A DNA stretch of 64,000 nt. Source: Lichina pygmaea (taxonomy: Eukaryota > Ascomycota > Lichinomycetes > Lichinales > Lichinaceae). The notes under the pieces are model-generated. The model was given only the letters and a program-made list of their open reading frames with translations, was not told the DNA's origin and ran no database searches. Positions 23,191-52,446 of the stretch are shown in pieces. Position numbers and translations under genes: made by a program. Position 1 is the stretch's first letter. Each line of letters opens with the position of its first letter. Where the stretch lies: positions 1,178,001-1,242,000 of the forward strand of contig OY730170.1 of NCBI GenBank assembly GCA_963422465.1, given 5' to 3'.

Positions 23191-23453
23191 AGCAACTTAA
23201 TACACTTGACGGAGACTGGAATGTCATTGAGCCAGAGGACCCACCAGGAGAGGCTCAGCTATCCCTCGAACAATGGGACAACTACAATCAGACATTGGAA
23301 GCAGCCCACCAACTGGCAACATCAGGAGGCAAGGACCTACCAGAACAGACAGGTCAGGACAAGGGACAGGAGCCCTTAACCACCTCTGATGGGGACTGAG
23401 ACAAACCCACATCTATCAAAGAAGAAATACCACGAGGAAGCTATGCTTACAGC

Positions 23454-23862: not shown

Positions 23863-23899
23863 CTCCCTTGTCAAGGGGTGACATCAGGAGCTCAACAAC

Positions 23900-26800
23900 A
23901 TGACCCCTAGCAACGCAAAGCACCTGCGATTGCCTGTGTCACTACACGCCAACACGCCAGTACGGACATACGCACTTGTGGACTCTGGAGCCAGCAGAAA
24001 CTACATCTCAAGACAACTTTATGATACCCTCGGCACTGGAAGGAGACGCAAGCAGCAGCCCTATCAGCTCGCGATGGCAAATGGACAGACAGAGCTAGTC
24101 TGCCATGAGACGCAGCCAATGGAAATGGTTACCGGACACCATGCTGAAAGGATCCACCTTGATATTGTCGAGTTGGCCACTCAGGATATCTATTTGGAGA
24201 TACCTTGGCTAAAGAAGCACAACCCAGTTGTTAACTGGAAGACAGGAGTACTCACATTTAGGAACTGCACTAACAACACAGCTCAGACCTGTTACCAGCC
24301 GCAGAAGGTGTGGACAGATGAGGGAAGGAGTCCTCAGTGGAACCTCACTGACAGAAAGGACAACTCTCAAAAGAAGAGGTCTGCCTTGACAGGCACACCC
24401 CGGAACCAGGTGGCCAAACAGTCAGAGATAAAGAGAGAGGAAGTTGTTAACCCTCTGGAGATCCCTGAAGAGTACTGACCTGGGTATGATAACCTCTTTC
24501 AGGAAGAGACAACAACAGCAGTGTTGCCTAAGCACCAATCTTGGGATTATGAGATCAAGTTGCAACCAGGGACAGAGCCAGGATTTGGACCAATTTACCA
24601 GTTATCAGAGAAAGAGCTCCAAGTACTTCACGAGTACCTGGAGGAAAACCTGAAAAAGGGTTTCATTCAAGAATCTCAATCGCCAGCAGGATACCTGATA
24701 CTATTTGCACCAAAGAAAGACAGAAGTCTTCGACTTTGTGTGGATTACAGGAAACTCAACAACATTACCATCAAGAACTGATATCTGTTGCCAAATGCGA
24801 ATGAATTGTGAGACAGGATCAGCCAAGCTACAATCTTTACCAAGCTGGACTTGAAAGGAGCATACAACCTGATACGCATGAAAGAAGGAGAAGAATGGAA
24901 GACAGTCTTCAGAACCTGATACAGACACTACGAGTATCTGGTTATGCTATTCAGACTCACGAACACACCAGCAACATGTTAAGCATTGATCAACAACGTC
25001 ATCAGAGCACACCTGGACCAAACAGCTATCGCCTACCTGGACAACATTCTTGTCTACTCGAACACGCAACAGGAACATACCAAACATGTGAAGGATGTTC
25101 TACAATGCCTACAACAGGCAGAGCTCAAGCTCAACCCAAAGAAATGCGAGTCCAACAAACTGGAAGTTGAATTCCTTGGATATGTCATAGGGATTGAAGG
25201 GATCAAGATTGACCCTGAGAAAATCAAAGTGATTCAGCAATGGCCAACACTGATGTCAGTTAAGGAAGTACAAGCCTTCCTAGGATTTGCCAACTTCAAC
25301 TGACAGTTCATAAAGAACTACTCACAGATAGCAACACCACTGACAGAACTCACAAAGAAGAACGTGGAGTACCGGTGGACGGAGAGACAACAAAAAGTAT
25401 TCCAACAGCTCAAGGACACTTGCGCCAAGGAACCAGTTCTCCTCAACTTCAAGACAGGCCAACCAACATGAATCAAGACAGATGCTTCAGATCAGGCAGT
25501 AGGAGTATGTCTATACCAACAGGCAGACAGCAAGTGGCACCCAGTTGCCTACTACTCACGAAAAATGACACAAGCAGAACAAAACTATAATATCCACGAC
25601 AAAGAGCTATTGGCAGTTGTCAACACACTCGAACACTGGAGAGTGTACGCGGAAAGCAGTTCTGAACTCACTGTTCTCACAGACCACAAGAATCTGACAA
25701 CGTTCACAACAACCAAGAAGCTGAACAGATGGCAAGTCAGATGGGCTGAACTCCTAGGGCAACACAAGTTCAAGATCTTGTACACCCCTGGACAAGACAA
25801 CAGGAGAGCAGACGCACTAAGCTGACAAAAAGACCACATGGAAGATGATGAACACCAAGGAATAATCTTACAGCAGGACCAGCAAGGAAACCTGGTGCCT
25901 CAGCCACAGATCAACAAGCTCACGGCAGAAGACACTGAAGAACTAATAAGGAACTACCACAACAATCCAGCACATGGTCACCCAGGAATCTCCAAGACCA
26001 CAGACCTTATCCAACAGGCAGGGAACAATGTTATTAACCTCTGACAACATGTCACAAACTACATCAGCAAGTATCTACTATGCCAGAAAAACAAACATGG
26101 AAGACATAAGCTATACAGAGAAGGACACCCGAACACAATACCGAGAGGCCTGTGGGAAGACGTGTCAATAGACTTCATCACAAAGCTACCCAAGTCCAAA
26201 GACCCAGTCACAGGAATCACCTACAACTTGATTATGGTGATAGTGGACAGATTCACAAAATATCTAATAGTGGTACTATTCAAGGAGACCCACACAGCAG
26301 AACAGTTGGGACACCTTTTACTGGACAGATTAGTCAGAGACCACAGAGTTCTGATCATGATCATTACAGACAGAGACAAACTCTTCACATCCAACTACTG
26401 GAAGACAATCAGTGCAGCCATAGGAACAAAACCCAAAATGTCTACAGCCTATCACCCACGAACTGACAGCCAGACAGAGCAAGCAAACCAAGTCCTGGAG
26501 ACTTACTTACAGCATTACATCAACCAGACCCACAGCAATTAGGTACAGTTATTACCGGTGGCACAGCTGGCAATCAACCAGCACAGATCAGACTCAACAA
26601 AGGAATCACTATTTTTTGCTAATTTTGGATGACATGTGAACATTGGGATGCCAAGCAGAGCTTCACCAAACATGGAGAAAGTACTCCAACATGACAAGCT
26701 CCTATGACAAACACACACAATGATGAGGCACTACCTTCAAGAGACCTCAGAAAGAATGCAACATCAAATGGACAAGAAATCAAAAATGGCACCTCAGCTA

Positions 26801-27200
26801 AAGAAGGGGGATAAAGTCTACCTCCTTACAAGAAATTGGAAAACAAAGAAACCAAAGACAAAGAAACTTGACAACATCAAGGTCAGACTATTTTCAGTCG
26901 AAGAAAAAACAGGACCAGTCAACATCAAGATACAACTACCAAGGGATGCCAGAGTCCATCCAAACTTTCATATATCAATGATTGAACCAGCCGACCAGAG
27001 CACACCCTTGCAGGAAACATTCTATTACCAACCCGAAGAAGAACAAGAGTTTGAGGTTGAACAGATCCTGGCTAGAAAAAGTCAGCAATACCTTGTCAAG
27101 TGGAAAGGATACCCAGACTTGGAAAATACCTGGGAACCACTCAAGAACCTCGCGAACTGCCGGCTTCTTCTGCGACAGTTTCAGCAGGAGCAGGACTGAA
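23900..27200 (+). other. pol region of Gypsy A1
   Basis: Domains in order. Retropepsin carries ALVDSGASRNYIS (about 23,970). RT carries [17 protein letters not shown] (about 24,725) through about 25,300. RNase H is at about 25,560-25,825. Integrase, about 25,840-26,540, has an H2C2-like half and DFITKLPKSKDPVTGI..VDRFTKYL. A chromodomain, about 27,050-27,195, has YLVKWKGYPDLENTWEPL. The chromodomain places it in the chromovirus branch of Ty3/gypsy. The region is a broken fossil. Confidence 0.88.
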
Positions 27201-27326
27201 CAGCTCGGCCTGCAGGAGGGATGTGTTAATAACTGATCAAGTCAAATCCTCACCATCCGACTCCATCTCTTTCACCAAGCACTGAAGCTTCTGCCTTGCA
27301 CAGACCTCAGCGCCCTCTAACACCTT

Positions 27327-27641
27327 TCACTTCTGAGACAGACAAGCCTGCACTGTGGCATGTTGTTCAAAGAGTGCATCATGTGTTGCCTCGTCAGCGG
27401 CAACATCCTCACGGAGGTTGTCCCGGGACATGTTCAAAGATTCCCAGGACACAGAGACACAAGACCTTCCGCGCTGAGTGCACACAGCACATTTCAACTT
27501 ATCATCTTCTCCCAGCATCTGGAAGCACGGACAACCACAGAGAACACAAAAGTCGCAGGGCGTACGTGAAACAAAACCCTGATTGCAGATTTGAGCAGCC
27601 AGCTGAGTTCGGCTAACAGTCGCACATGACTTTGGAGGCAT
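27327..27641 (-). CDS. Antisense Zn2Cys6-like small protein of Gypsy A1
   Basis: A 104-codon frame opposite to gag-pol, starting at ATG 27,641, only 44 bases from the 3' LTR. Its cysteines are spaced C-x2-C-x6-C-x11-C-x2-C-x6-C, from CDFC to RSC. This is the arrangement of the GAL4-type fungal binuclear zinc cluster. SVSWESLN and a short alpha-helical tail rich in A, D, E and Q follow. The same frame, at the same distance from the LTR, is present in family B (plus strand, 37,231) and in the second A copy (52,403), with every cysteine kept. Transcription would have to start inside the LTR. A role as a DNA-binding regulator is inference; it may also be a captured host gene fragment. Confidence 0.65.
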   Translation of the reverse strand: MPPKSCATVSRTQLAAQICNQGFVSRTPCDFCVLCGCPCFQMLGEDDKLKCAVCTQRGRSCVSVSWESLNMSRDNLREDVAADEATHDALFEQHATVQACLSQK

Positions 27642-27684
27642 GACCAGATTTCATCAAGATGATGAAAGATGGAGAGGAGGATAG

Positions 27685-28278
27685 TGTTATGACCCAGGAG
27701 GAACACAGTCTTTATATACTCACAGAAAGCAGCAGACAGGATACTGGACAGAAGTACCAGACAGCGTGACATGGGAACCGGTCACGTGACTGGCGAGACA
27801 AACCAGGAAGTGCTCGCCGCAGCATGCATATGCATGAACAAGTGAGCAAAGTGAGCAGAGCTCACCCAGCTCACCGCAGCGTGCATGAAAAGTGAGCAAA
27901 GTGAGCAGAGCTCACCCAGCTCACCGCAGCGTGCATGAAAAGTGAGCAAAGTGAGCAGAGCTCACCCAGCTCACCGCAGTGTGCATGAAAAGTGAGCAAA
28001 GTGAGCAGAGCTCACTCTGCTCATGAACTGGGCACTATATAGCCAGGCGATAGTTCCCCTATGGAACAATTGTCTTCAACTCATGTTGTGATCCAGACAA
28101 CTAGATCTACTTTAATACAATCCTTTTGTACGAAGCTGTTGATCAGGTGTCACCACCACCATGTTCCACCAAACCCCTTCACACTCCTTGACACTCCTCT
28201 CCTGCGAGAACCAACCCGCCTTCCACCTCTCACCCTAATCCTATACTCGGATAGGACAGTACGGTACAGACCGCAACA
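27685..28278 (+). repeat. 3' LTR of Gypsy A1
   Basis: 594 bases, preceded by a purine tract (gatggagaggaggatag). It has one more 50-base U3 unit than the 5' LTR. Followed by target duplication AATAC and the rest of LINE1. Confidence 0.93.
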
Positions 28279-29514
28279 AATACTCAGATCTGTACTGAAC
28301 TATGCAGTGGGAATTTGGTTCAACCCACTCAGAAAATCCTCTAATATTTCCTCTCTTATCATATTCCAAAACAAATGTCTGAGACTTATTGGGGGTGCTT
28401 TCAAAGCCACTCCTTCTTTTCTATTAGAGAGTGAGCTTTTTCTTTTACCTCTAGATCTCTATTTTAAATTTCGCACAGCTTGTTTTCTATCTTCTATCCA
28501 AACCTCCTCTCTGAAAGACTTTCTTGACAGTACCTTTTCTACTATTTCTTCCTATACTTCTTCACTGAGGAAACTTTTAAAGAAATCCTCAACTATCTCT
28601 CCTAATTGGAAGTTCACTTGGTTAAGTCAAATAACTACTAACCAGGCTAGTTCAAAGAAAGAACTACAAATACTCTTTACTAAAGAGTGGGAAAACCAAT
28701 AGGAGGAGAAGAAAAGAAAAGGCTATGCTGGATGGCAGGTGTTTTGCCAAAAACCTCACTACAACAACCTAAAGCTCTACAAAGAGCTACAGAAAGCTGA
28801 GGCAAGTCTACTACTGCAAACCAGAACTGGGAGAATTGGTCTAGCAAGTTTTCTTTTCAGAGCTGGAGTCCCTGACTTTCCTACCCCCCTATGCATGTGT
28901 GGTCAAGCAGAAGAGACAGTAAAGCATATTACCTCTTCATGCTCTCTCTACTCAAGTCAAAGACAACATGCTCTCTTTAACCCCCAAGATTTCACTACTA
29001 TTATTTCAAACCCAGAGCTTCTACAGAAGTTTCTGTACTGGTTTATGTCTTTGAAAAGACTAAACCAATTTAATCTGGCTTTCAAACTTCACTATTCACA
29101 CTCCAACATCTAGAAGCTTTTCCTACCAGACACTACAAGATTTCCTTTTGCTACACTTTCTAGTCACCTCCCTGTCTTCAGTTTTTATTCCTTTAAAGGT
29201 TTTCTGAAGAAGTTCACTATTAGCTGGAAGATCTGCATGGCTGTAAAGCTACAAACAGTGTAAGAATCAAATCAAAAATCAAAAAAACCAAGGTCAATCT
29301 CATGACCTTCTTGATACCTGGGTGCAAGATCTGAACAATACTGAGGCATATTTTGCTGTCTCTGAGAAAGGGTGGACTAATAATAATCTAGGTCTGCAAT
29401 GGTTGGAGAAAGTCTTCAACAAGTCTACCAGAACTCAGACAGGACAAAGCCGTCGTTGTCTTCTTATTGTTGATAGCCATTCTAGCCATGTTAATCTTCC
29501 TTTCCTTGAATATG

Positions 29515-29854
29515 TGTTAAGGCCTAGGCCGGAACAGCCTAGGTAAGCAAGGGAGGTGTGTTAGTCACACGGAACAACGTCCGACCGACCAGAGGACGAG
29601 CAGGAGCTAAGCGAGGAGCTCGACCACGCGAAGGGACGATACCCCTCAAGGAAGACCCCCCCCTTGGGCATCTGTATAAAGACCGCCCCAAAAGCCTAGA
29701 GGGATTAGCTCTCCAGGCTGAACATCGTATTAGAACAATAGTACAGGGAGAGCTACCCACCTGTCTATTCACCTATCGAGTCCCTGTCTAGAATCCGCCC
29801 TGCGAAGCAACAGACCGTACTGATTTCTGTGTGAACCCGGCCCGGCCTTTAACA
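29515..29854 (+). repeat. Solo LTR, family X
   Basis: 340 bases, TGTTAAGGCC..GGCCTTTAACA, with imperfect inverted ends, a tataaa box at about 29,676 and a 5-base target duplication ATATG on both sides (29,510-29,514 and 29,855-29,859). No internal region remains. It interrupts the Fot1-type transposase. Confidence 0.9.
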
Positions 29855-30063
29855 ATATGCTGATGCAAATAGTATTATTATTCTTGTACTACCTCCTCAT
29901 ACTACCCATTGATTACAGCCTCTTGATATTGGTCTTTTCTCTCCCCTAGCACAACACTATTCCCAACAGCTTGATGTTGTGATGTGTAACAGCTTAGGCA
30001 TTACATCTATCACAAAACACATCTTCTGGCCTATCTTCTACTCTGCGTGGCAAAAAAGCTTTA

Positions 30064-30663
30064 TGTTACGACCTATGGGATGGGAGCCACTCATTTATAG
30101 GCAATCAGACTGTGGGCCAGGCAAGAGGACACCATGGAAGTCAAGTGACCAACCAACAAGGGGTCACGTGACTGTTGAGACACACAGAAGTCTTGACGCA
30201 GGATGTATGAAGTATTGAGACAATCTCACCAGTCTTGACGCAGGATGCATGAAGCATTGAGACAATCTCACCAGTCTTGACACAGGATACATGAAGTATC
30301 AAGACAATCTCACCAGTCTTGACACAGGGTGCATAACATGGTGGGACTGTCGAGACAATCTCACCTGTCTTGATGTCGAGACTGTTAAGACAATCTTGAT
30401 TGTCTTGACAGGCCAGCACTATATAGTCTGACAATAGTTCCTCTATGGAACAATTGTCTTCAACTCATGTTGTAATCCAGACAACTAGATCTACTTCAAT
30501 ACAATCCTTTTGTACAAAGCCATTGATCAGGTGTCACCACCACCATGTTCCACCAAACCCCTTCGCACTCCTTGACACTCCTCTCCTGCGAGAACCAACC
30601 CACCTTCCGCATCTCACCCTTAATCCTATACTCGGTTAGGACAGCATGGTACAGACCGCAACA
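30064..30663 (+). repeat. Solo LTR, family B
   Basis: 600 bases, TGTTACGACC..CCGCAACA, with target duplication CTTTA (30,059-30,063 and 30,664-30,668). U3 has tandem units of about 42 bases built on gtcttgacgcaggatgcatgaa and related inverted GTCTTGAC/GTCAAGAC words. Confidence 0.9.
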
Positions 30664-31117
30664 CTTTACAACTGAGAATATTCAGTCAGCTTTTGAGACT
30701 ACTGGTATCTTTCCCCTGAATACTTCTTGAGTACTTGATGTTCTTAATCCACCTTCTCATACACCTCAGAAACCTGCCCCTATCTGTGCTAAGACTCCTG
30801 TTACATTCAAATCTTTCTGTTATGCAATTTGAGCGCAGAAGAAAGCTACTTCCTCAGAAGGGCTTGAGCAGATCAGTGATGGCTTTGCAAAAGTTATCAC
30901 AGAGCGAGATCTCTATAAAGCTACAGTGGAACAGCTAACACAGGCTCTACTAATAGAGAAGAAGAAGAAACAGCAAGGAAAGCAGCTTAATCTGCTTGGA
31001 GAGAAGGATAATAAGCCTCAGATCTTCACTCCAACAAAAATCCAAGTAGCACTTGCAAGTTGTGACAAGGCAATGGCAGAGCAGAACTCGAGCCTAACTG
31101 ATTCAGTAACCTTGACC

Positions 31118-31379
31118 TGACTTGGCTTGAGACTTGAGACTTGGATTGATGTACAAGACGAAAGACGAGGAAGGAAAAGAGAAAAGAAGAAGAGAAGAAG
31201 CTGGGGGAGCAGGAGAAGTTCTTATAGGCAGGGGATCAGGCAATGGCAGAGCAAACAGGCAAACAGTGCAGATGGGACTTCCTGGCAACAGCGGAGCATA
31301 CAGGCAAACAGTGCAGATGGGACTTCCCGGCAAGGTGTGTGACTTGTGCCAGATATGCAACTGGGCCAGAACTGTGACA
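31118..31379 (-). repeat. 3' LTR of Gypsy C, copy 1
   Basis: A short LTR of about 262 bases, TGTCACAG..AAGTCA on the minus strand, with a ctataag box and a doubled segment (GGAAGTCCCATCTGCACTG, two copies). It is preceded on the minus strand by a G-rich polypurine tract. The outer edge is inferred, since the other LTR is not in the window. Confidence 0.65.
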
Positions 31380-32899
31380 TTACCCCCCTCCTTCACATGG
31401 CCAACTCCTGTGAGCCTCAGGCTGCTCATGGGTGTAGTTCTGTGGCTGTGGCTTCCTTGGGTATTTCTCATGGAAGTTGTAGATGGTGTCTTTGGTGTTG
31501 TCAAGATGCTCAATAGGCTCTTCAGTGGCATCTTCAATTGGCTATCCAGACTATTTGACTGGGTACTTGAACTTCTGTCAAGATGTTGCTGGCTTGGAGT
31601 CAAGGATTTCTTCAACCTGGAACTCTTCATCTGTGTCTTGACCAATGACAGGGCCAGGATGTTCATTTGATTGGCCAGGGATAGGATTGGCAGGTGTCAG
31701 ACATAGAAGGGAAACATGAAAGACAGGGTGGATCTTGAGAGTGTGTGGAAGCTCCAGATGGCAGGCACAGCTTCCGACTGTCTTCAACACCTTGAATAGT
31801 CCAATCCACTTGTTGTCAAGCTTTTTGCATGGGTGGCATGTCCTGATATTCTTGGTATTCAGCCAAACAAGATCTCCAGTTTGATAGGACAGTGACAGGA
31901 CTTGATGCAAATTGGTGGTGTGAGCTTGAGCTTCCTGGGATAGTCGGAGTTCAGCTTGCAACTGTTCCAGAATCTGCGTTATTTCTCCAGAGATTTCCAT
32001 AGCATCTTGGTTGCAGGCTTCACTCGTGGGTGTGATGCTGAGCTGTGGATGGAACCCTTTGTTGGCAAAGAACAGTGACATGCCAGAGGAATCAGACTGG
32101 GAGTTGTTCTGCGTGAACTCTGCCAGAGGAAGCTATTGGACCCAGTCATCTTGGAGATAGTTGACATAGGATCTCAGGTAATGTTCAAGCTCCTGATTCT
32201 CTTGTTCTGTCTGACTATCTGTCTCTGGGTGGTGTCCTGAGGATAGTCGTAGCATGATGTCAAGATGGGTACAGAGTGCTTTCCAGAATAAGCTGACAAA
32301 CTGACCTCCTCTGTCTGAGACAATACTCCTGGGTAAGCCATGGGTACAGACAACAAACTGGATGAACATCTGGACAAGATGCAAGGTTGTTATCTCAGCA
32401 CATAGCACAAAGTGGTGTTCTTTGGTGAGACAGTCAGTGATGACCCAGATGTGCTTGGCACCAGGGAAGCAGGCATCTCTTGACTTGGGCAAGTCAGTAA
32501 TAAAATCCATAGCCAGATCCTGCCAATGTTGCTGAGGCATGGGAAAAGACAGCAGCTCTCCTTGGTGATCACAGGCAGGCTTTGCTTGAGAGCAGACATG
32601 ACAATTCCTGATGTACTGCTGTATGATGTTCACCATCTTTGGCCAATAGTACCAACAAGACAGAAGATTGTGGGTCTTGGCAATCCCAGTGTGGCCAGCC
32701 ATTGCTTGGTCATGGGCTTCTTGGAACAGGTGTAGGTGTAGCTTATTGTTCTCAGGGATCCAGAGTCAGTTCTTGTAGAAGAGACAGTTATTTTCCAAGC
32801 TGCAGTCTGAGAGAGACACTTCTCAACTGTGCCTGACACTATCTCTTAGCATCTGTGACACTGTTGCCACTGGATCACCTTCAGCAAGGTTGTTATAGG

Positions 32900-33498
32900 T
32901 GTTGTGGTCTGTACTGTACTGTCCTATCCGAGTATAGGATTAGGGCAAGAGGTGGAAGGTGGGTTGGTTCTCGCAGGAGAGGAGTGTCAAGGAGTGCGAA
33001 GGGGTTTGGTGGAATGTGGTGGTGGTGACACCTGATCAATAGCTTTGTACAAAAGGATTGTATTGAAGTAGATCTAGTTGTCTGGATCACAACATGAGTT
33101 GAAGACAATTGTTCCATAGGGGAACTATTGTCAGACTATATAGTGCTGGCCTGTTGAGACAATCAAGATTGTCTTGACAGTCTTGATGTCAAGACAGGTA
33201 AGATTGTCTTGACAGTCCCACTATGTTATGCATCCTGTGTTAAGACTGGTGAGATTGTCTTGATGCTTCATGCATCCTGTGTTGAGACTGGTGAGATTGT
33301 CTTGATGCTTCATGCATCCTGTGTTGAGACTGGTGAGATTGTCTTAATGCTTTATGTATCCTGCGTCAAGACTCCTGTGTGTCTTGACAGTCACGTGACC
33401 TCTTGTTGGTTGGTCACTTGACTTCCATGGTGTCCTCTTGCCTGGCCCGCAGCCTGATTGCCTATAAATAAGTGGCTCCCATCCCATAGGTCATAACA
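32900..33498 (-). repeat. Solo LTR, family B, inside Gypsy C
   Basis: 599 bases in minus orientation, with target duplication ATAGG (32,895-32,899 and 33,499-33,503). It splits the region between the integrase and RNase H parts of element C. Confidence 0.92.
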
Positions 33499-36400
33499 AT
33501 AGGCAGCTTGGATGATGTCTGAAAGAGGTGTAGCATCAGGTTCAGTGTCAACTGGTGCAGCTTCTGAACATCTCAGGATCTGGATAGGCTTGACTTGAAC
33601 CTCTGAATGTGCAAGATTCTTGGACTTAAGGATGACTTGCTCCATGAAGTCTTGACAGAGATCACTGTCTGACAGGAGGTCTTGGGAATGTCAAGTGAGG
33701 GTGTTGGCCTTGCACTGACTACCTGGACAGTAGCTGATCTTGAAATTGAAGTGTGACAAGAACTTGCTCCAACAGGCTTGACAGCAGGAAAGACACTTTG
33801 ACAACATGAAGTACTCCAAGTTCTTATGATCAGAGATCACCTTGACAGGTTCTGGAGATTCTTCAAGCTCTGCTCACCATTCTTCAAAAGCACAGACAAT
33901 TGCCAGCAACTCTTTGTTATAGATCTTGTAGTTGCATTCTGCTGGCAGGTGGTGGTGTGATAAGAAAGCAACAGTGTAGAACTTCTTCATGGTCTGGCTG
34001 TGACAGGACAGCACCAGAGACATAGTCAGAAGTGTCAGTCTCAACAACACACTCCTTCTCTGGATCAAAGTGCTGCAGGATAGGTGCAGTCCTGAACACC
34101 TTCTTGATACTTTCAAACAAGCACTGCTCTGGGGTTTCCCACTTGAAGGCAACATTCTTCTTGGTCAGAGCTGTGAGCAGAGATGCAAGCTTGGCAAAGT
34201 CTTTGATGAACCAGTGGTAGAAGTTTGCAAAGGCAATAAAGCTCTGCACTTTCTTGAGACTGGCAGAAGGATTCCACTCCTTGATGGTGTCAGTCTTGGC
34301 TGGGTCTATGCTCACAGATCTGGGTTGGCTATCTTCAGTGGCAGACTGAATGATGAGGCCAAGGTACTTGACTTGATACACTTCAAAGTCACACTTGGAG
34401 ATGTCAACTTGCAGGCTTGCATCTTGTAGTCGACTGAGAACAAGCTTGACATGCTTCCAGTGTTCCTTGAGTGTCTGACTGTAGACAAGGATGTTATCCA
34501 CATAGGCAGTGCTAAAGATGTCAAGGATGTCAGGTCCCAAAACATCATTGATGTAGTTCTGGAATGTGCTTGGAGCATTGGCAAGACCAAAGGGCATGAC
34601 GAGGTATTCGTAGAGGCCTGAGCGTGTGCGGAACGCAGTCTTCTATTCTTCACCTTCCTTCATCCAGATATGGTTGAAGGCCACTTCAAGAGCTCTGGAA
34701 AAACTCTCACCTAGAAACAAGCACTTCAACTGTTTTCTCTTCCTTTCTTCCTCTCTACTGTTCAGAGATTGGCAGAACACTTTTTCTTATTAATAAAAAT
34801 CTGAAACTCTCTTCTCTTCATCCTACCTTCTGGAATAAAGACTTTGTTTCTCTTGAAATCTACTTGGAAAACTCTTCTACTTCTCTCTGGGTACATAATC
34901 TCTACTTCACCCCATCAAGTCAAGAAAACTACACAGAGGTATCAGAAGCTCTTCTCTGTTTACTCCAAAATACTTTACAAGAACAAGGACAACATATTCT
35001 TCTCACAGACTCAAATCTTCACCACCCAGACTGGTCAAAGAAAAGAAGACTGTACTCTGAGACTGCAAACAAGTTTCAAGACCTAATGAAAAGTTTAAAT
35101 CTGGATTTAGCTATTGCACCTTTCACCCCTACCAGAGCAAGATCTCTTTCTGAAAAACCATGTTCTCCTATTGATCTGTCTTTTATTTCTTCTTCTCTTT
35201 CTAACTCTCTGATTTTCTCTAAAGTGGCTCTTCAGTTCTTTCATGGGTCTGACCACAGACCTGTACTAACCTGCCTGGACCTGGATCCTCCAAGGAAAAT
35301 CTGGAAACCAGAAAGAAACTGGAGAACACTGGACTCAAACCTTGCAAGAGTAGAGTGTGAGAAGCTACACCTGCCCTTCCACTTCCAAGACAAATATGAA
35401 GTGGATGAGTACTTGGAGTATCTTGACAACTTTCTCCAAGAAATAGCAAGCAAATCCACACAGCTCCAGAAGCAATCTGGCCACTCAGTTCCCTGGTGGA
35501 ATCAAGAGATCCAAAACAAGGTTAAAGAGGAAAGAAGAGTAAGAAGAAAAGTGCAAAAAAGGCAAGCAAGTCAAGAGGAACTTGAGCAAGCAACTAAGCT
35601 CAAGAAAAAGGCAGTCAGAGATGGAAAACAGAACACTTTCAGACACCAAATCCATGAGCTGGCCAGCTCTTCAAAGTTCTGGAAGCTTGCAAAGTGGGGA
35701 AAGTCCAAAGCCAACAAGACTCCTGATCTTCCTCTGGTTCCTGACCTGGAAACACAAGAAGGAATAGCCAAAACCTTTGAGGAAAAGACTAAAGCCTCCT
35801 CACAGCAGTTCTTTCCAAAAGCTCTAGTTCCAGAACCAGGCTCAGAAAGCTCCCAGACTATCTCTGAGATACAGCTCTCCCAGGAGGTAACATGGGAAGA
35901 GGTGGAGCAAATTCTGGCCAAGAAGAAACATTTCACAGCAGGAGGGAGAGATAAGCTGCCAAATGGATTTCTGAGAGCTCTGGGGCCTAGGTTCTGCCAA
36001 GCTCTAGCTATTCTGACTTCAACATGCTGGAAACTAGAGTACTTCCCTGAAAGATTTAAGAGTGCAAAAACAGTCTGCTTGAGGAAACCTGGCAAGAGAA
36101 CCTACAATCAAGCTAAAGCCTGGCACCCTATAGCTCTGCTAAACACAACAGGCAAGCTGATGGAAGCTATTGCTGCAGCCAGACTAAGCAAGATAGCAGA
36201 AGAAGCTGGACTATTGCCAGATATCCAGATGGACTTTAGGAAAGGAAGATCCACAGAAGCAGCACTTTTCCTTCTAACCTTCCAAGTGGAAAAAGTCTGA
36301 AAGGAAGGCATGGTTGCATCCCTACTCTCACTGGATATCTCAGAAGCCTATGACAGAGTTCTCCCCAAGATACTACAGCAAATTCTGAAAAGAAAAGGAA

Positions 36401-36589
36401 TACCTGCCTGGCTAGCTTCCTGGATCTACTCTTTCTGTGATAAGCGCTCTACCACTCTTGTCTTTGATGATTCTGAGTCTTGTTCTATTCCTATTCATTG
36501 TGGAGTTTCTCAAGACTCTCCAGTATCCTCTATTCTTTTTCTATTCTACATTTCTGAATTGCATAAGACTGTGCATACTCCCTCTTCTG

Positions 36590-37186
36590 TGTTGCGGTCT
36601 GTACCGTACTGTCCTATCCGAGTATAGGATTAGGGCGAGAGGTGGAAGGCGAGTTGGTTCTCGCAGGAGAGGAGTGTCAAGGAGTGCGAAGGGGTTTGGT
36701 GGAATGTGGTGGTGGTGACACCTGATCAATGGCTTCGTACAAAGGATTGTATTGAAGTAGATCTAGTTGTCTGGATCACAACATGAGTTGAAGACGATTG
36801 TTCCATAAGGGAACTATCGCCGGACTATATAGTGCTGGCCTGTCAAGATGATCAAGATTGTCTTGACAGTCTTGACGTCGAGACAGGTGAGATTGTCTCA
36901 ACAGTCCCACCATGTTATGCACCCTGCGTCAAGACTGGTGAGATTGTCTTGATGCTTCATGCATCATGCGTCAAGACTGGTGAGATTGTCTCGATGCTTC
37001 ATGCATCATGCGTCAAGACTGGTGAGATTGTCTTGATGCTTCATGCATCATGTGTCAAGACTCCCGTGTGTCTCGACAGTCACATGACCCCTTGTTGGTT
37101 AGTCACTTGACTTCCATGGTGTCCTCTTGCCTGGCCCGCGGCCTGATTGCCTATAAATGAGTGGCTCCCATCCCTGGGTCGTAACA
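36590..37186 (-). repeat. 3' LTR of Gypsy B
   Basis: 597 bases, TGTTGCGG..CGTAACA on the plus strand. U3 has several 42-base units with the core catgcatcatgcgtcaagac. It adjoins the polypurine tract of the element at 37,187-37,200. Confidence 0.93.
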
Positions 37187-37230
37187 CTACCCTCCTCTCC
37201 TTCATTCATCGTCCTGATGAATTCTTGAGT

Positions 37231-37572
37231 ATGTCTGCAAAATCACGTGCCTCTGCTTACCGAAACCAACTGGCAGCCCAGATCTGTGATCATAACTTTG
37301 TGTCGCTTGCTCCGTGTGACTTCTGTGTTTTGAACCACAAGCCCTGCTTCCGAATGTCTGACGACAACGATAAGTTGAAGTGCGCTGAGTGCACTCGTCA
37401 GGGAAAGTCCTGTGTGTCACTTTCTTGGGAGTCACTGAACATGACTCAGGATAACCTTCGCGAGGATTTGGCTGTTGATGAGGCCAAGCGGGATGCTCTT
37501 GTCAAGCAGCTTGCCGAGCTGCAGGCTCGTGTGTCCCGAAAGCGAAAGGTTCTTGAGGGTGCTGAGGGTTGA
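37231..37572 (+). CDS. Antisense Zn2Cys6-like small protein of Gypsy B
   Basis: A 113-residue frame from ATG 37,231 (MSAKSRASAYRNQLAAQ), 45 bases inside the 3' LTR and antisense to pol. The cysteine pattern C-x2-C-x6-C-x11-C-x2-C-x6-C starts at about residue 30 (CDFCVLNHKPC) and ends with KCAECTRQGKSC. VSLSWESLNMTQDNLRED follows, then a helix likely to form a coiled coil (DALVKQLAELQARVSRKRKV). That order, zinc cluster then helix, matches fungal Zn2Cys6 regulators, which dimerise through a coiled coil. The basic residues usual between the second and third cysteines are few (NHK), so DNA binding is unproven. The frame is open upstream into the LTR. Confidence 0.7.
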   Translation: MSAKSRASAYRNQLAAQICDHNFVSLAPCDFCVLNHKPCFRMSDDNDKLKCAECTRQGKSCVSLSWESLNMTQDNLREDLAVDEAKRDALVKQLAELQARVSRKRKVLEGAEG

Positions 37573-40500
37573 GCAAAGAAGAAGCTCCAGTGCCTTGTTG
37601 CTGAAATGGAGGTGGATGGTGAAGACTTGTCGGTGACAGTTATTGATGTGTCCGCACTGCAGGCCGAGCTGTTTGGTCCTGCTCCTGCCGGAACTGCTGC
37701 AGGAGGAGCTGGCAGTTCGCGAGGTTCCTGAGTGGCTCCCAGGTATTTTCCGAGTCTGGGTAGTCTTTCCACTTGACAAGGTATCACTGACCTTTTCTCT
37801 TCAGGATCTGTTCGGCCTCAAATTCCTGTTCTTCCTCTGGTTGGTAATGAAATGTTTCCTGCAAGGGTGTGCTCTGGTCGGCTAATTTGATCATTGAGAT
37901 GTGAAAGTTTGGGTGTACCCAAGCGTCTCTCGGTAGTCGCAGTCTGACATTGACTGGTCCGGTTTTTTCTTCGACTGAAAATAGTCCGACCTTGACATGG
38001 TCTAGTTTCTTTGTTCTTAGTTTCTTTGTTCTCCAATTTCTTGTGAGGAGGTAGACTTTATCCCCCTTCTTTAGCTGAGATGCCATTTTCGATTTCTTGT
38101 CCATTTGGCATTGTATTCTTTCTGAGGTCTCTTGAAGGTAGTGCCTCATCATCATGTGCGTTTGTTGTAGGAGCTTGTCGTGTTGGAGTGCTTTCTCCAC
38201 ATTTGGTGAAGCTCTGCTTGGCATCCTGATGTTCGCATGTTGTCCAAAATTGGCAAAAAATGGCGATTCCTTTGTTGAGTCTGGTCTGTGCTGGTTGATT
38301 GCCAGCTGTGCCACCAGTAATAACTGTGCCCAATTGCTGTGGGTCTTGTTGATGTAATGCTGTAAGTAAGTCTCCAGGACTTGGTTCGCTCACTCTGTCT
38401 GGCTGTCAGTTCGTGGATGATAGGCTGTAGACATTTTGGGTTTTGTTCCCATGGCTGCACTAATTGTCTTCCAGTAGTTGGATGTGAAGAGTTTATCTCT
38501 GTCTGTAATGATTGTGATCAGAACTCCGTGGTCTCTGACCAATCTGTCCAGTAAGAGGTGTCCCAACTGTTCTGCTGTGTGGGTCTCCTTGAATAGTACC
38601 ACTATTAGATATTTTGTGAATCTGTCCACTATCACCATAATCGAGTCGTAGGTGATTCCTGTGACTGGGTCTTTGGACTTGGGTAGCTTTGTGATGAAGT
38701 CCATTGACATGTCTTCCCACGGGCCTCTCGGTATCGTGTTCAGGTGTCCTTCTCCGTATAGCTTATGTCTTCCATGTTTGTTTTTCTGGCATAGTAGACA
38801 CTTGCTGATGTAGTTTGTGACATGTTGTCAGAGGTTAATGACATTGTTCCCTGCCCGTTGGATAAGGTCTGTGGTCTTGGAGATTCCTGGGTGACCATGT
38901 GCTGGATTGTTGTGGTAGTTCCTTATTAGTTCTTCAGTGTCTTCTGCCGTGAGCTTGTTGATCTGTGGCTGGGGCACCAGGTTTCCTTGCTGGTCCTGCT
39001 GTAAGATTGTTCCTTGGTGTTCATCATCTTCCATGTGGTCTTTTCGTCAGCTTAGTGCGTCTGCTCTCCTATTGTCTCGTCCAGGGGTGTACAAGATCTT
39101 GAACTTGTGTTGCCCTAGGAGTTCAGCCCATCTGACTTGCTGTCTGTTCAGCTTCTTGGTTGTCGTGAACGTTGTCAGATTCTTGTGGTCTGTGAGAATA
39201 GTGAGTTCGGAACTGCTTTCCGCGTACACTCTCCAGTGTTCGAGTGCGTTGACGACTGCCAGTAGCTCTTTATCGTGGATATCATAGTTTTGTTCCACTT
39301 GTGTTATTTTTCGTGAGTAGTAGGCAACTGGGTGCCACTTGCCGTCTGCCTGTTGGCATAGACATGCTCCCACTGCTTGATCTGAAGCATCTGTCTTGAT
39401 TTGTGTCGGCTGGCCTGTCTTGAAGTTGAGGAGAACTAGTTCCTTGGCGCAAGTGTCCTTGAGCTGTTGGAATGCTTTTTGTTGTCTCTCCGTCCACCAG
39501 TACTCCACGTCCTTCTTCGTGAGTTCTGTCAGTGGTGTTGCCATCTGTGAGTAGTTCTTGATGAACTGTTGGTTGAAGTTGGCAAATCCCAGGAAGGCTT
39601 GTACTTCCTTAACTGATGTCAGTGTTAGCTATTGCTGAATCACTTTGATTTTCTCAGGGTCAATCTTGGTCCCTTCAATCACTATGATGTATCCGAGGAA
39701 TTCAACTTCCAGTTTGTTGAACTCGCATTTCTTCAGGTTGAGCTTGAGCCCTGCCTCTTGTAGGTATCGTAGAACATCCTTCACATGTTTGGTATGTTCT
39801 TGTTGCGTGTTCAAGTAGACAAGAATGTTGTCCAGGTAGGCGATAGCTGTTTGGTCCAGGTGTGCTCTGATAACATTGTTGATCAATGCTTGACATGTTG
39901 CTGGTGCGTTTGTGAGTCTGAATAGCATAACCAGATACTTGTAGTGTCTGTATCAGGTTCTGAAGGCTGTCTTCCATTCTTCTCCTTTTTTCATGCGTAT
40001 CAGGTTGTATGCTCCTTTCAAGTCCAGCTTGGTGAAGATTGTAGCTTGGCTGATCCTGTCTCGCAATTTGTTCGCATTTGGCAGTGGATATTGATTCTTG
40101 ATGGTAATGTTGTTGAGTTTCCTGTAATCCACACAAAGTCGAAGACTTCTGTCTTTCTTTGGTGCAAATAGTATCGGGTATCCTGCTGGCGATTGAGATT
40201 CTTGAATGAAACCCTTTTTCAGGTTTTCCTCCAGGTACTCGCGAAGTACTTGAAGCTTTTTCTCTGATAACTGGTAAATTGGTCCAAATCCTGGCTCTGT
40301 AGCTGGTTGCAACTTGATCTCATGATCCCAAGGTTGGTGCTTAGGCAACACTGCTGTTGTTGTCTCTTCCTGAAAGAGGTTATCATACCCAGGTCAGTAC
40401 TCTTCAGGGATCTCCAGAGGGTTAACAACTTCCTCTCTCTTCATCTCTGACTGTTTGGCCACCTAGTTCTGGGGTGTGCCTGTCAAGGCAGACCTCTTCT

Positions 40501-42528
40501 CTTGAGAGTCGTCCTTTCTGTCGGTGAGGTTCCACTGAGGACTCCTTCCCTCATCTGTCCATGCCTTCTGCGGCTGGTAACAGGTCCGAGCTGTGTTGTT
40601 AGTGCAGTTCCTAAATGTGAGTACTCCTGTCTTCCAGTTAACAACTGGGTTGTGCTTCTTTAGCCAAGGCATCCCCAAGTAGATATCCTGAGTGGCCAAC
40701 TCGACAATATCAAGGTGGATCCTTTCAGCATGGTGTCTGGTAACTATTTCCATTGGCTGCGTCTTATGGCAGACTAGCTCTGTCTGTCCATTTGCCATCA
40801 CAAGCTGATAGGGCTGCTGCTTGTGTCTCCTTCCAGTGCCGAGGGTGTCGTAAAGTTGTCTTGAAATGTAGTTTCCACTGGCTCCAGAGTCAACAAGTGT
40901 GTATGTCTGTACTGGCGTGTTGGCGTGTAGTGACACAGGTAATCGCAGGTGCTTTGCGTTGCTAGGGGTCATGTTGTTGAGCTCCTGATGTCACCCCTTG
41001 ACAAGGGAGTTCAGTCTTTTCCTGATTGAAGTGTCTTACCACTGACTGGGCAATGGGTCCAGCCATTCCCATCAGTTCTGAGGAATCCGTTCATGAATTT
41101 GTCTTGCTGATGCTTGTCACATCCAGGCTTGAGGCAGTACTGCCAATTGTCGACGTAGCAGTTGTAGTTGTTGCCTTGCTGTAGGAACATGAGGTGTTTG
41201 TGCCAATCATGTGTGTGCCCGGGGAATGCGGTGTGTTGGCGTTTGTCCCAAAGATGGATTTCACACGCATCCTTCTCGCAATTGACCCAATGCTTGTGGC
41301 AGGTGGCGTGGTAGGGTGAATGTCCTCCGTACCTTCGTAGTTGTTCGTGGTAGGTGTAGTAGTGCTTTGTGCAAAACCTCCACTGTAGTTCGCCGTGCTG
41401 TAGATTTCGTGGGTCTATGCTGTAAGTATAGCTTCCTTGTGGTATTTCTTCTTTGATAGACATGGGTTCGTCTCAGTCTCCATCAGAGGTGGTTAAGGGC
41501 TCCTGTCCCTTGTTCTGACCTGTTAGTTCTGGTAGGTCCTTGCCTCCTGATGTTGCCAGTTGGTGGGCTGCTTCCAATGTCTGATTGTAGTTGTCCCATT
41601 GTTCGAGGGATAGCTGAGCCTTTCCTGGTGGGTCCTCTGGCTTAATGACATTCCAGTCTCCGTCAAGTGTATTAAGTTGCTGTCAGTGCACCTTGTTCTT
41701 TGAACAACAGTCTTTCGCCATGTGGCCTAGCTTGCCACAGGCATAGCACTTTAGTGCTTTCCCTTTTTTATTGTTCCTTCCCTTCATGAACCTTCCCTTG
41801 TGGTGGACTGCATCCAGTTCCATGGGTGCATAGCTATATGGGTCATGTGGCAGTGCCTTGTTAGGCGGCTTGTAGTGGTTGCTCACATGCCATGCGGGGT
41901 GGCTGTATCCTCCGTCGTGGTGTTTCTCCATCACTCACTCGAATAGTTTGTCATCGATGTTGATTGCTTGTGCGATAAGTTCATCCAGTGTGTCGACCGC
42001 TCGTCCATCGAAGGTGATTTCATCCTTCACGTTTTCCTTGAGTCCACGTCGGTACATGACCATCAGGGCGTTATCGTCCTAGTCAGTCAGTACTGAGTAT
42101 TGTTTGAACTGCGTAGTGTACTCTGCAGCTGAGCGTTGTTGTTTGATGTGCTGGATCATTTGTATAGCCACTTTATCTTTGTTAGATAGTCCAAGGATCT
42201 TTTTGATCTCTTCCTTGAATCACGTCCATTTTGTCATCCATTCCATTGTGCCGTTGTGGTCTCTGTTTCCTGAGAGATGTTTGTTGACGTAAGGCTTGAT
42301 CCATCAATAAGTATTACCTCTCATGTAAGTGGTTGCAAAGAGGGGCCACTTTTCCTTAGGCAGCTTTGTCTCTGGTTGGAATTGAAAGTAGACTTGGAGT
42401 TGCATGAGCCAGTCGTCAACCTTGTTTCTTTCGCTGTAGAACAGGTCTGGCTTGGCGACACTAATCTTTCCATCTGGGAAGTTGGGGTTGGTTGCTCCTG
42501 AGGTACTCATCCTTGAGGGTCTTCAAAG

Positions 42529-43127
42529 TGTTGCGGTCTGTACTGTACTGTCCTATCCGAGTATAGGATTAGGGTGAGAGGTGGAAGGCGGGTTGGTTCT
42601 CGCAGGAGAGGAGTGTCAAGGAGTGCGAAGGGGTTTGGTGGAACGTGGTGGTGGTGACACCTGATCAATGGCTTCGTACAAAGGATTGTATTGAAGTAGA
42701 TCTAGTTGTCTGGATCACAACATGAGTTGAAGACGATTGTTCCATAAGGGAACTATCGCCGGACTATATAGTGCTGGCCTGTCGAGATGATCAAGATTGT
42801 CTTGACAGTCTTGACGTCAAGACGGGTGAGATTGTCTCGACAGTCCCACCATGTTATGCACCCTGCGTCGAGACTGGTGAGATTGTCTCGATGCTTCATG
42901 CATCATGCGTCGAGACTGGTGAGATTGTCTTGATGCTTCATGCATCATGTGTCAAGACTGGTGAGATTGTCTTGATGCTTCATGCATCATGTGTCAAGAC
43001 TCCCGTGTGTGTCTCGACAGTCACGTGACCTCTTGTTGGTTGGTCACTTGACTTCCATGGTGTCCTCTTGCCTGGCCCGCGGCCTGATTGCCTATAAATA
43101 AGTGGCTCCCATCCCTGGGTCGTAACA
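42529..43127 (-). repeat. 5' LTR of Gypsy B
   Basis: 599 bases. Same structure as the 3' LTR, with a small number of differences, mostly C/T. Target duplication TTCTG follows at 43,128. Confidence 0.93.
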
Positions 43128-43939
43128 TTCTGGTGTATCTGCCCTGGGGTTTGCAGATGATACAAATCTGCTTGCTTTTGGTCACTCCTTGAAAAGTAAT
43201 CTTCTGAAGTTAAAGAACACACACCACAAATGTCTATCCTGGACTGCAAGACATGGAATAGTCTTCTCACCTGAGAAATATGAAATACTTCATTTTTCCA
43301 GAAGAAGATCAGACAATCTTCAGCTCAAGCTCAGACTGGGGAATGTGATTCTCAAACCAAAAGAAGAAGTGTGAGTACTTGGAGTGTACCTAGATGCAAA
43401 GCTCCACTGGCACAAACACCAGAGGATTATTCTTCAAAAAGCACAGAAAGCACTCTCTTCCCTTTCTAGAACTTCCTATTCTACTTGGGGCTTTCCAGTT
43501 CACACATCATGTCTGGTGTACACTGCTATACTGAGATCTCTACTGAGCTATGCAGTGGGGATCTGGTTTAACCCTCTAAGAAAATCCTCCAATATCTCTT
43601 CTCTTGTTTCATTTCAAAACAGATGTCTAAGACTTATTGGGGGTGCTTTCAAAGCCACTCCTTCTTTTCTATTAGAGAGTGAGCTTTTTCTTCTATCTCT
43701 AGACCTCTACTTTAAATTTCGCACTGCCTGTTTTCTTTCTTCTATTCAAAAATCCCCTCTCAAATAATTTCTTGACAGTATCTTTTCCACTATTTCCAGC
43801 TATACCTCTCTCTTGAAGAAACCTTTAAAGAAATCCTCAACTATCTCTCCTAAGTGGAAATTCACTTGGTTAAGTCAAATAACTACTAACCAGGCTAGTT
43901 CAAAGAAAGAACTACAAAAGCTCTTTACTAAAGAGTGGG

Positions 43940-45058: not shown

Positions 45059-46511
45059 GTGGTAAGAAGACAAGTGCTCAGAGGACAGGCAAGCCAAGAA
45101 GAGCTAGAAGAAGCAACTAAGCTCAAGAAGAAAGCTGTCAGAGAAGGCAAACAGAACACCTTCAGAAAACAAGTTCATGAGCTAGCCAGTTCCTCAAAAT
45201 TCTGGAAGCTTGCAAAGTGGGGAAAATCAAAAGCTAACAAGACCCCTGATCTTCCTCTGGTCCCTGATCTGGAGACTCAAGAAGGACTAGCCAAAAGCTT
45301 TGAGGAGAAGACAAAATCTTTCTCAGCTCAATTCTTTCCAGAAGCACGTGTTCCAGAACCAAGTACAGAAAGTCACCAGAGTACCCCAGAGATCCAGCTT
45401 TCTCAGGAGGTTACCACTGAAGAAGTGGAGCAAATTCTGAACAAGAAGAAACCTTTTACAGCAGGAGGAAAAGACAAGCTGCCAAATGGATTTCTGAAAG
45501 CTCTGGGTCCCAAGTTCTGCCAAGCTATAGCTGTTCTCACATCAACATGCTGGAGACTGGAATACTTTCCAGAGAAATTCAAGAATGCAAAAACAGTCTG
45601 TCTAAGAAAACCTGGCAAGGGAATCTATAACCAAGCTAAAGCCTGGCGCCCTATAGCTCTGCTAAACACAACTGGCAAGCTGATGGAAGCTATTACAGCA
45701 GCCAGACTAAGCAAGGTAGCAGAAGAGGCTAAACTCTTGCCAGAAATCCAGATGGGGTTCAGGAAAGGCAGATCAACTGAATCAGCACTTTTCCTTCTAA
45801 CTTCCCAAGTGGAAAAAGTCTGGAAAGAAGGCATGGTTACATCTCTACTTTCTCTGGACATCTCAGGAGCATATGACAGAGTTCTTCCAGAGATTCTTCA
45901 AAAGATTCTGGAGAGAAAAGGAATCCCTCTCTGGCTAACTTCTTGGATCTTCTCTTTCTGTACCAGATGTACCACCACTCTAGTTTTTGATGACTCTGAG
46001 TCCTCTTCTATTCCTATTCACTGTGGAGTTCCCCAAGGTTCCCCTTTGTCTCCTATTCTTTTTCTATTCTATATTTCTGAACTTCATGAGACTGTACATT
46101 CTCCTACTACTGGTGTTTCTGCTCTGGGATTTGCAGATGATACAAATCTGCTTGCATTTGGACACTCTCTTAAAAGCAACCTTCTGAAGTTGAAGAATAC
46201 ACATCTTAAATGTCTATCTTGGGCTGCAAGACATGGAATGGTCTTCTCTCCTGAGAAATATGAAATACTTCATTTTTCCAGAAGAAGATCAGACAATCTG
46301 CAGCTCAAGCTTAGACTTGGGAATGTGATTCTAAAACCAAAAGAAGAAGTGCGAGTATTGGGAGTGTACCTGGATGCCAAACTCCACTGGCACAAACACC
46401 AGAGAATTATTCTTCAAAAAGCACAAAAAGCACTATCTTCTCTTTCTAGAACCTCTTACTCCACCTGGGGCTTTCCAGTTCTCACAGCACGCCTTGTGTA
46501 CACTGCAATAC

Positions 46512-50100: not shown

Positions 50101-52088
50101 ACTGACAGAACTCACAAAGAAGGATGTGGAGTACCGGTGGACGGAGAGACAACAAAAAGTATTCCAACAGCTCAAGGACACTTGCGCCAAGGAACCAGTT
50201 CTCCTCAACTTCAAGACAGGCCAACCAACATGAATCAAGACAGACGCTTCAGATCAGGCAGTAGGAGTATGTCTATACCAACAGGCAGACAGCAAGTGGC
50301 ACCCAGTTGCCTACTACTCACGAAAAATGACACAAGCGGAACAAAACTATAATATCCACAACAAAGAGCTATTGGCAGTTGTCAACACACTTGAACACTG
50401 GAGAGTGTACACGGAAAGCAGTTCTGAACTCACTGTTCTCACAGACCACAAGAATCTGACAATGTTCACAACAACCAAGAAGCTGAACAGATGGCAAGTC
50501 AGATAGGCTGAACTCCTAGGGCAACACAAGTTCAAGATCTTGTACACCCCTGGACAAGACAACAGGAGAGCAGACGCACTAAGCTGACGAAAAGACCACA
50601 TGGAAGATGATGAATGCCAAGGAATGATCTTACAGCAGGACCAGCAAGGAAACCTGGTGCCTCAGCCACAGATCAACAAGCTCACGGCAGAAGACACTGA
50701 AGAACTAATAAGGAACTACCACAACAATCCAGCACATGGTCACCCAGGAATCTCCAAGACCACAGACCTTATCCAACAGGCAGGGAACAATGTCATTAAC
50801 CTCTGACAACATGTCACAAACTACATCAGCAAGTATCTACTATGCCAGAAAAACAAACATGGAAGACATAAGCCATACGGAGAAGGACACCCGAACATGA
50901 TACTGAGAGGCTTGTGGGAAGACGTGTCAATGGACTTCATCACAAAGCTACCCAAGTCCAAAGACCCAGTCACAGGAATCACCTACGACTTGATTATGGT
51001 GATAGTGGACAGATTCACAAAATATCTAATAGTGGTACTATTCAAGGAGACCCACACAGCAGAACAGTTGGGACACCTTTTACTGGACAGATTAGTCAGA
51101 GACCACGGAGTTCTGATCACGATCATTACAGACAGAGACAAACTCTTCACATCCAACTACTGGAAGACAATCAGTGCAGCCATGGGAACAAAACCCAAAA
51201 TGTCTACAGCCTATCACCCATGAACTGACGGCTAGACAGAGCAAGCAAACCAAGTCCTGGAGACTTACTTACAGTATTACATCAACCAGACCCACAGCAA
51301 TTAGGTACAGTTATTACCGGTGGCACAGCTGGCAATCAACCAGCACAGATCAGACTCAACAAAGGAATCACTATTTTTTGCCAATTTTGGATGACATGTG
51401 AACATTGGGATGCCAAGCAGAGCTTCACCAAACACAGAGAAAGCACTCCAACATGACAAGCTCCTATGACAAACACACACAATGATAAGGCACTACCTTC
51501 AAGAGACCTCAGAAAGAATGCAACATCAAATAGACAAGAAATCAAAAATGGCACCTCAGCTAAAGAAGGGGGATAAAGTCTACCTCCTTACAAGAAATTG
51601 GAAAACAAAGAAACCAAAGACAAAGAAACTTGACAACATCAAGGTCAGACTATTTTCAGTTGAAGAAAAAACAGGACCAGTCAACATCAAGATACAACTA
51701 CCAAGGGATGCCAGAGTCTATCCAAACTTTCATATATCAATGATTGAACCAGCCGACCAGAGCACACCCTTGCAGGAAACATTCTATTACCAACCCGAAG
51801 AAGAACAAGAGTTCAAGGTTGAACAGATCCTGGCTAGAAAAAGTCAGCAATACCTTGTCAAGTGGAAAGGATACCCAGACTTGGAAAATACCTGGGAACC
51901 ACTCAAGAACCTCGCGAACTGCCAGCTTCTTCTGCGACAGTTTCAGCAGGAGCAGGACTGAACAGCTTGGCCTGCAGGAGGGATGTGTCAATAACTGATC
52001 AAGTCAAATCCTCACCATCTGACTCCATCTCTTTCACCAAGCACTGAAGCTTCTGCCTTGCACAGACCTTGGCACCCTCTAACACCTT

Positions 52089-52403
52089 TCACTTCTGAGA
52101 CAGATGAGCCTGCACTGTGGCAAGTTGTTCAAAGAGTGCATCGTGTGTTGCCTTGTCAGTGGCAACATCCTCACAGAGGTTGTCCTGGAACATGTTCAAA
52201 GATTCCCAGGACACAGAGACACAAGACCTTCCACGCCGAGTGCACGCAGCACATTTCAACTTATCATCTTCTCCCAGCATCTGGAAGCACAGACAACCAC
52301 AGAGAACACAAAAGTCGCAGGGTGTACATGAAACAAAACCCTGATCGTGGATTTGAGCAGCCAGCTGAGTTCGGCTAACAGTCACACGTGACTTTGGAGG
52401 CAT
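52089..52403 (-). CDS. Antisense Zn2Cys6-like small protein of Gypsy A2
   Basis: 104 codons from ATG 52,403, 44 bases from the 3' LTR. All six cysteines and their spacing are the same as in A1 (CDFCVLCGCLC..KCAACTRRGRSC). The rest is about 85-90 percent identical to A1 by eye. It remains open although the sense frames around it are decayed. Confidence 0.65.
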   Translation of the reverse strand: MPPKSRVTVSRTQLAAQIHDQGFVSCTPCDFCVLCGCLCFQMLGEDDKLKCAACTRRGRSCVSVSWESLNMFQDNLCEDVATDKATHDALFEQLATVQAHLSQK

Positions 52404-52446
52404 GACCAGATTTCATTAAGATGATGAAAGATGGAGAGAAGGATAG

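Follow-up and report, generated by a model that had tools for sequence, protein, structure and literature searches.

An antisense gene with a Zn2Cys6-like cluster and the adjoining U3 arrays appear to be exchanged as one cassette in a chromodomain retrotransposon family of Lichina pygmaea

The window considered here is a stretch of 64,000 nt from the ascomycete Lichina pygmaea (contig OY730170.1), whose genome was searched over 32.5 Mb in 8 contigs. It contains a chromodomain Ty3/gypsy family in two independent insertions, namely element B and element A1 with its duplicate A2. In all three elements, a frame antisense to gag-pol lies between pol and the 3' long terminal repeat (LTR), and the comparison of genomic copies indicates that this frame is a real, conserved gene under purifying selection. 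The encoded protein carries a Zn2Cys6-like cluster. The adjoining U3 resembles a divergent promoter built around palindromic arrays, which differ between subfamilies A and B. Gene and arrays appear to pass from element to element as a single cassette, as would fit a cognate regulator and its operator. Tentatively, we propose that the element has its own GAL4-like factor and a matching operator array in the LTR, and that the pair is swapped as a specificity cassette. Antisense genes in LTR elements are already known; what is new here, and was overlooked by an earlier examination of the window made from its letters (the sequence-only reading), is that the U3 arrays are inherited with the gene and that the module is swapped.

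The sequence-only reading had reported three elements, each with an antisense six-cysteine frame 44-45 bp inside the 3' LTR. All three elements carry the frame at the given place, opposite to pol and with the exact spacing C-x2-C-x6-C-x11-C-x2-C-x6-C, but they represent only two independent insertions. Across all six reading frames of the window, a search pattern for general Zn2Cys6 spacing matched exactly three times, always at these frames, and 60 sequences of 64 kb simulated by a first-order Markov model gave 0 matches, by which a chance occurrence of the six-cysteine pattern was ruled out. The ATG lies 45 bp from the edge of the LTR in B, whose LTR is 36590-37186, and 44 bp from it in A1, whose LTR starts at 27685. 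The starts of the frames had been given correctly, but their extents were too short: the full gene has 166 codons in uninterrupted genomic copies, and the window frames are interrupted by stops. In B, the gene (37231..37572, plus strand) encodes 113 aa up to an in-frame TGA, and the homologous frame continues to 37731; in A1 (27141..27641, minus strand), 104 aa precede the stop at 27327-27329, and the homologous frame continues to 27141; the gene of A2 (51903..52403, minus strand) is the segmental-duplication copy of that of A1. The cluster occupies 37315..37413 on the plus strand in B and starts on the minus strand at 27557 in A1 and at 52319 in A2. Over its last ~19 codons the gene overlaps the pol end (the chromodomain end) tail to tail, and pol follows the antisense gene in the 68 genomic copies that were aligned.

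These 68 distinct copies (22 A, 46 B) align over 504 nt with zero indels. No stop interrupts 23 of the 46 B copies; all 22 A copies have at least one. Sampling took the highest-ranked copies by protein similarity, and the counts of indels and stops are therefore biased towards conservation. Each of the A-type and B-type queries had at least 150 scored matches in this genome, and an uninterrupted A-type protein, P0063, is present in a public collection. The six cysteines are retained in 63 of the 68 copies. Between A and B, 113 differences were fixed at 80%, distributed over codon positions 1, 2 and 3 as 27, 23 and 63; equal rates at the codon positions, which would have spoken against a gene, are thereby excluded. 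The ratio of nonsynonymous to synonymous divergence (dN/dS) between A and B outside the pol overlap was 0.14 for the antisense frame (dN 0.24; dS 1.77, near saturation), well below 1 as the sequence-only reading had anticipated for a gene, and 0.27, 0.96, 1.11, 1.45 and 1.69 for the other five frames. Conservation of a non-coding kind was ruled out by this value, the lowest of the six. In the short overlap region the constraint moved to the pol frame (0.13), which served as a positive control. The ratio pN/pS was 0.307 (codon-bootstrap interval, 0.236-0.392); within families it was 0.45 in both A and B, in the same conservation-biased sample. When polymorphism was compared with divergence at all sites, fixed differences (55 nonsynonymous to 58 synonymous) contrasted with polymorphic ones (173 to 103; p 0.013), and the contrast was no longer significant without CpG-prone sites (43:42 versus 65:47, p 0.32). 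The in-frame stops of the genomic copies are mostly TGA, and changes from Arg to Cys, His, Gln or Trp are frequent; both look like CpG-type C-to-T decay, as in silenced copies.

Homologues of the protein were numerous: at least 49 were obtained with the window protein, at least 259 with a 12-row profile and at least 74 with a profile built solely from divergent members, in sets that overlap and with both profile searches having scored only the ~8,000 candidates that shared most words. One source of homologues is a metagenome-assembled genome of Watsoniomyces obsoletus. Identity within the family is 31-60%. Most full-length members have 159-177 residues, and a few with a leader reach 193. They share one plan: an N-terminal region leads to the six cysteines, after which come a CVSxSWESL block and a coiled coil containing RKRKVLEQ, then CLVEEMEAEGED, and the protein ends in a short tail. 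The C-termini of P0034 and P0038, from other contigs, correspond, out of frame, to the antisense strand of the pol chromodomain; therefore, these two occupy the same antisense position, and they are the two members by which this placement is seen outside the present genome. One scan each of viral and genome contigs for the genomic context of distant homologues gave no match. For a further relative, P0117, a precomputed annotation lists the Pfam family PF27583.1, which was not among the matches listed in our own Pfam scan of that protein.

The Zn2Cys6 fold of the cluster is supported, not proved. The cysteine spacing agrees with C-x2-C-x6-C-x(5-12)-C-x2-C-x(6-8)-C, the cluster aligns in register with GAL4, and the fold matches are mostly to Zn2Cys6 proteins, but weak. 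A long helix follows the cluster, as the sequence-only reading had seen. Its expectation of significant PF00172 matches was disappointed: the matches listed for the three window proteins at E<=10 included none to PF00172, and the best-scoring relative, P0108, reached 18.7 bits (E 0.0019), below the gathering cut-off of 21 bits. At E<=1, 14 of the 51 aligned family members matched this profile. No match judged relevant was obtained in the NCBIfam scan. The zf-PHD-like family PF15446 (P0001, E 0.0035, below cut-off; P0053, E 0.0088) was considered and set aside, as it appeared in only 1 of the 51 aligned members.

We examined the U3 beside the gene. An antisense TATA box lies 75-80 bp upstream of the antisense-gene ATG in 66 of the 68 copies (in B at 37152..37157, plus strand, 79 bp before the ATG). 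The LTR thus holds a TATA box aimed at the gene, in line with the antisense LTR promoter that had been suggested for it. At the opposite edge of U3, 65 of the 68 copies have a CTATATAG box for gag-pol; this sense TATA-like box is at 36825..36832 (minus strand) at the U3/R edge of B and at 28035-28042 in A1. Between the two boxes sits a tandem array. The array of B (36917..37062) consists of 3.5 units of 42 bp with the palindrome TCAAGAC-N10-GTCTTGA; that of A1 (27831..28023) consists of 3.8 units of 50 bp with GTGAGC-N3-GTGAGC-N3-GCTCAC-N3-GCTCAC, in which four GTGAGC half-sites, two direct and two inverted, follow each other at a 9-bp pitch. With 2-3 mismatches allowed, the own-type site was found in 21 of the 22 A copies and 45 of the 46 B copies, and the other type in none. 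Genome-wide, exact palindromes numbered 1,466 (B-type) and 821 (A-type) per strand, and the reversed patterns 0, LTR and non-LTR sites being counted together. Among B units, conservation was 0.72 in half-sites versus 0.67 in spacers, a comparison that contains apparent register errors. The spacer of the B palindrome includes GTGAGA, near the A half-site GTGAGC, and may reflect a shared ancestry of the A and B arrays.

The two subfamilies differ in one module. A1 and B of the window are 90-98% identical over gag and the greater part of pol. Identity drops to 79-86% where pol ends, to 63-70% within the antisense gene and to 54-62% in U3, and is back at 93-96% in R-U5. The sense coding around the frame had been taken to be decayed, which does not agree with the high identity of gag-pol up to its 3' end. 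Module identities were calculated from random subsets of copy pairs (120 of 231 A-A, 150 of 1,035 B-B and 200 of 1,012 A-B), and fixed differences were counted over all 68 copies. A and B differ by 25-42% in the block formed by the antisense gene and U3. When the 22 A copies are set against the 46 B copies, the number of fixed differences is 0 over 800 columns of pol. Where pol ends there are 2-15 per 100, and most of the antisense gene has 18-28 per 100. In the half of U3 that holds the array the count rises to 36-50 for each window of 100-119 columns, before it falls to 0-1 in R-U5. In B, the swapped module (U3, antisense gene and pol 3' end) spans 36836..38050, with approximate ends. As judged from these alignments, A and B draw on one gag-pol pool but bear different cassettes of antisense gene and U3, and this block is divergent because it has another ancestry. 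From what is known of retroelement replication, one template switch near the pol end, together with normal strand transfer at R, would produce the A/B pattern.

A third class (L085-L090) has the zinc cluster of B joined to the coiled coil of A, with the switch at about codon 70-80. All 6 of its best matches carry sites of the B type and none of the A type; in one of them there is just a single site. Since the recombinants with a B cluster have B sites only, array type tracks the zinc cluster rather than the coiled coil. Two points weigh against reading this as specificity: physical closeness alone could explain the linkage of array and cluster, and the independent recombination events are few in number.

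A self-encoded dimeric regulator acting on its own LTR is the best explanation we can offer, and one that we hold about as readily as we doubt it. The protein of ~166 aa would begin with an N-terminal helix, followed by a binuclear zinc cluster like that of GAL4, a long dimerising coiled coil and a conserved tail. Transcription of the antisense gene would run inward, probably from the TATA promoter in the U3 of the 3' LTR, and the product would bind zinc and dimerise. The dimer most likely binds the U3 arrays; binding in the 3' LTR would set its own level and binding in the 5' LTR the level of gag-pol, by activation or repression. The outcome would be a self-encoded switch that senses copy number.

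Several other explanations were weighed against the regulator. A conserved antisense zinc-cluster protein might act elsewhere rather than on the LTR, for example at host promoters, in nuclear import or in the choice of integration sites. We take this alternative seriously but consider it rather unlikely: the evidence for selection and fold fits it equally well, and a plant review, in its available part, suggests nuclear entry and roles like those of retroviral accessory proteins (PMC7264820), but palindromic arrays and a divergent promoter adjoin the gene, and array type follows zinc-cluster type across two recombination joints. It also seems distinctly improbable that the six cysteines bind zinc in a merely Zn2Cys6-like fold used for protein or RNA contacts, considering that the spacing, the in-register GAL4 alignment and the structural matches over the cluster indicate one fold class.

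Hardly any credence can be given to a non-coding antisense transcript, a source of double-stranded or small interfering RNA in which the open frame is incidental. Other elements have antisense LTR transcripts without coding capacity, according to the same partly available review (PMC7264820), but the dN/dS of the antisense frame is the lowest of six, no indel occurs in 68 copies, and the family is kept at 31-60% identity. LTR elements are known to transduce host genes, and a captured host regulator could be a passenger in a few copies; such a capture is very unlikely in view of the at least 150 genome matches for each query type and of the two relatives on other contigs in the same antisense position.

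The proposed regulator resembles the Zn2Cys6 regulators (PF00172; GAL4, PUT3, HAP1, Leu3, Pho7) in its cysteine spacing, in a possible helix after each CxxC, in the long helix after the cluster and in the palindromic target-like sites nearby. It differs from them in its sub-threshold similarity, in having few basic residues in the first loop and in being encoded by a retrotransposon; the usual host regulators of this class are also far longer. The gag-pol layout and the SH3_Tf2-1 and Chromo domains are those of Tf1/sushi-type chromoviruses (fungal MAGGY-like), which to our knowledge are usually described without an antisense gene. HBZ of HTLV-1, as far as the sources available in part describe it, is likewise an antisense retroelement gene whose antisense promoter lies in the 3' LTR and whose product is a nuclear protein. 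HBZ is a bZIP protein, not a zinc-cluster protein, and comes from a retrovirus of people; common ancestry with the antisense gene is not suggested.

The closest parallel in fungi is brtn, reportedly described by Zhao et al. in 2011 in Boty-like elements of Botrytis cinerea and Sclerotinia. Boty, in the descriptions available in part, is also a fungal gag-pol element with a chromodomain and an antisense gene in the same place, and on these descriptions the antisense gene and BRTN may be one family. The excerpted papers place brtn, as an extra antisense gene of Boty in Botrytis cinerea, between pol and 3' LTR of that element (PMC7264820, PMC8365987, PMC4227169, PMC5987419). In plants, antisense open reading frames lying between pol and the 3' LTR are established, and the TRP28 proteins of Retand are predicted to bind DNA, as stated in the accessible part of one paper (PMC11963269); gene23 of Grande is transcribed antisense and its product is nuclear, as excerpted from another (PMC7264820). 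The statement of the sequence-only reading that Ty3/gypsy elements normally encode no DNA-binding regulator was thus overstated. The plant aORF-3R genes (Retand TRP28/PF04195, Grande gene23, RIRE2, PvRetro13) share the same place, occur in several species and in some cases have nuclear products, and about half of Retand elements carry tandem arrays in that region, to go by the portions available. From the same portions, Retand differs in its TRP28 protein family, which has no six-cysteine cluster, in its non-chromovirus lineage, and in the place of its arrays, between pol and the LTR rather than inside U3. The plant papers, in their available parts, say that it is unknown what antisense genes do in LTR retrotransposons (PMC7264820, PMC11963269). 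A survey of fungal LTR elements (PMC3248453) does not use the word antisense in its main text, and a Histoplasma tiling-array study, by its available part, left out repeats and is hence uninformative (PMC3207942). Among the open-paper titles and abstract openings listed, outside which most subscription papers fall, there was no zinc-cluster antisense gene or cassette of gene and U3 in a fungal retrotransposon.

The host elements have the chromovirus layout gag-PR-RT-RH-INT-CHD between LTRs with a target-site duplication. Pfam recognised gag, a CCHC zinc knuckle, protease, reverse transcriptase, RNase H, integrase, SH3_Tf2-1 and Chromo in the sense frames, with the integrase core, read on a partial frame, at 29.6 bits, just under the cut-off of 32.6. 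In A1, the 3' end of pol (SH3_Tf2-1, Chromo) is at 26708..27196, plus strand, its final stretch overlapping the antisense gene. Element B (36590-43127, minus strand) was inserted within a repeat similar to a long interspersed nuclear element (LINE) and is flanked by the target-site duplication TTCTG (36585..36589 and 43128-43132); its 3' LTR (36590..37186, minus) and 5' LTR (42529..43127, minus) are 96.8% identical. Element A1 (21800-28278, plus strand) has LTRs that are 87% identical and the target-site duplication AATAC. A2 arose from A1 when a segment of ~16 kb was duplicated, with the two copies offset by 24.7-24.9 kb; since the flanks were duplicated too and AATAC is the same, A1 and A2 are one insertion. 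Samples of 100 bp from the duplicated blocks (20350-36590 and 45060-61450) are 94-100% identical, the last one 89%. Besides A1/A2, the block holds LINE-like repeats and LTR fragments. The empty target of B is preserved at 61412 in the second duplicate (78 of 80 bases match), and B was therefore inserted after the segmental duplication. Beside A1, a LINE-like reverse transcriptase frame lies at 20377-21957 (RVT_1, E 9.8e-35). After the 5' LTR of A1, the stretch 22344-22358 (CTTTGAAGAC...) shows, by eye, an 8-base complementarity to the LTR near 28067-28080, which is near the expected RNA start; presumably, this resembles Tf1-like self-priming.

With a DNA-binding layout, adjoining candidate targets and, among its natural copies, two variants whose sites differ as well as recombinants, the family makes the regulator a testable question. 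If the proposal is true, each subfamily would sense and control its own copies only, as a regulatory compatibility group akin to plasmid or prophage immunity. Some retrotransposons would then regulate themselves by a dedicated transcription factor, and their spread would scatter many hundreds of candidate sites.
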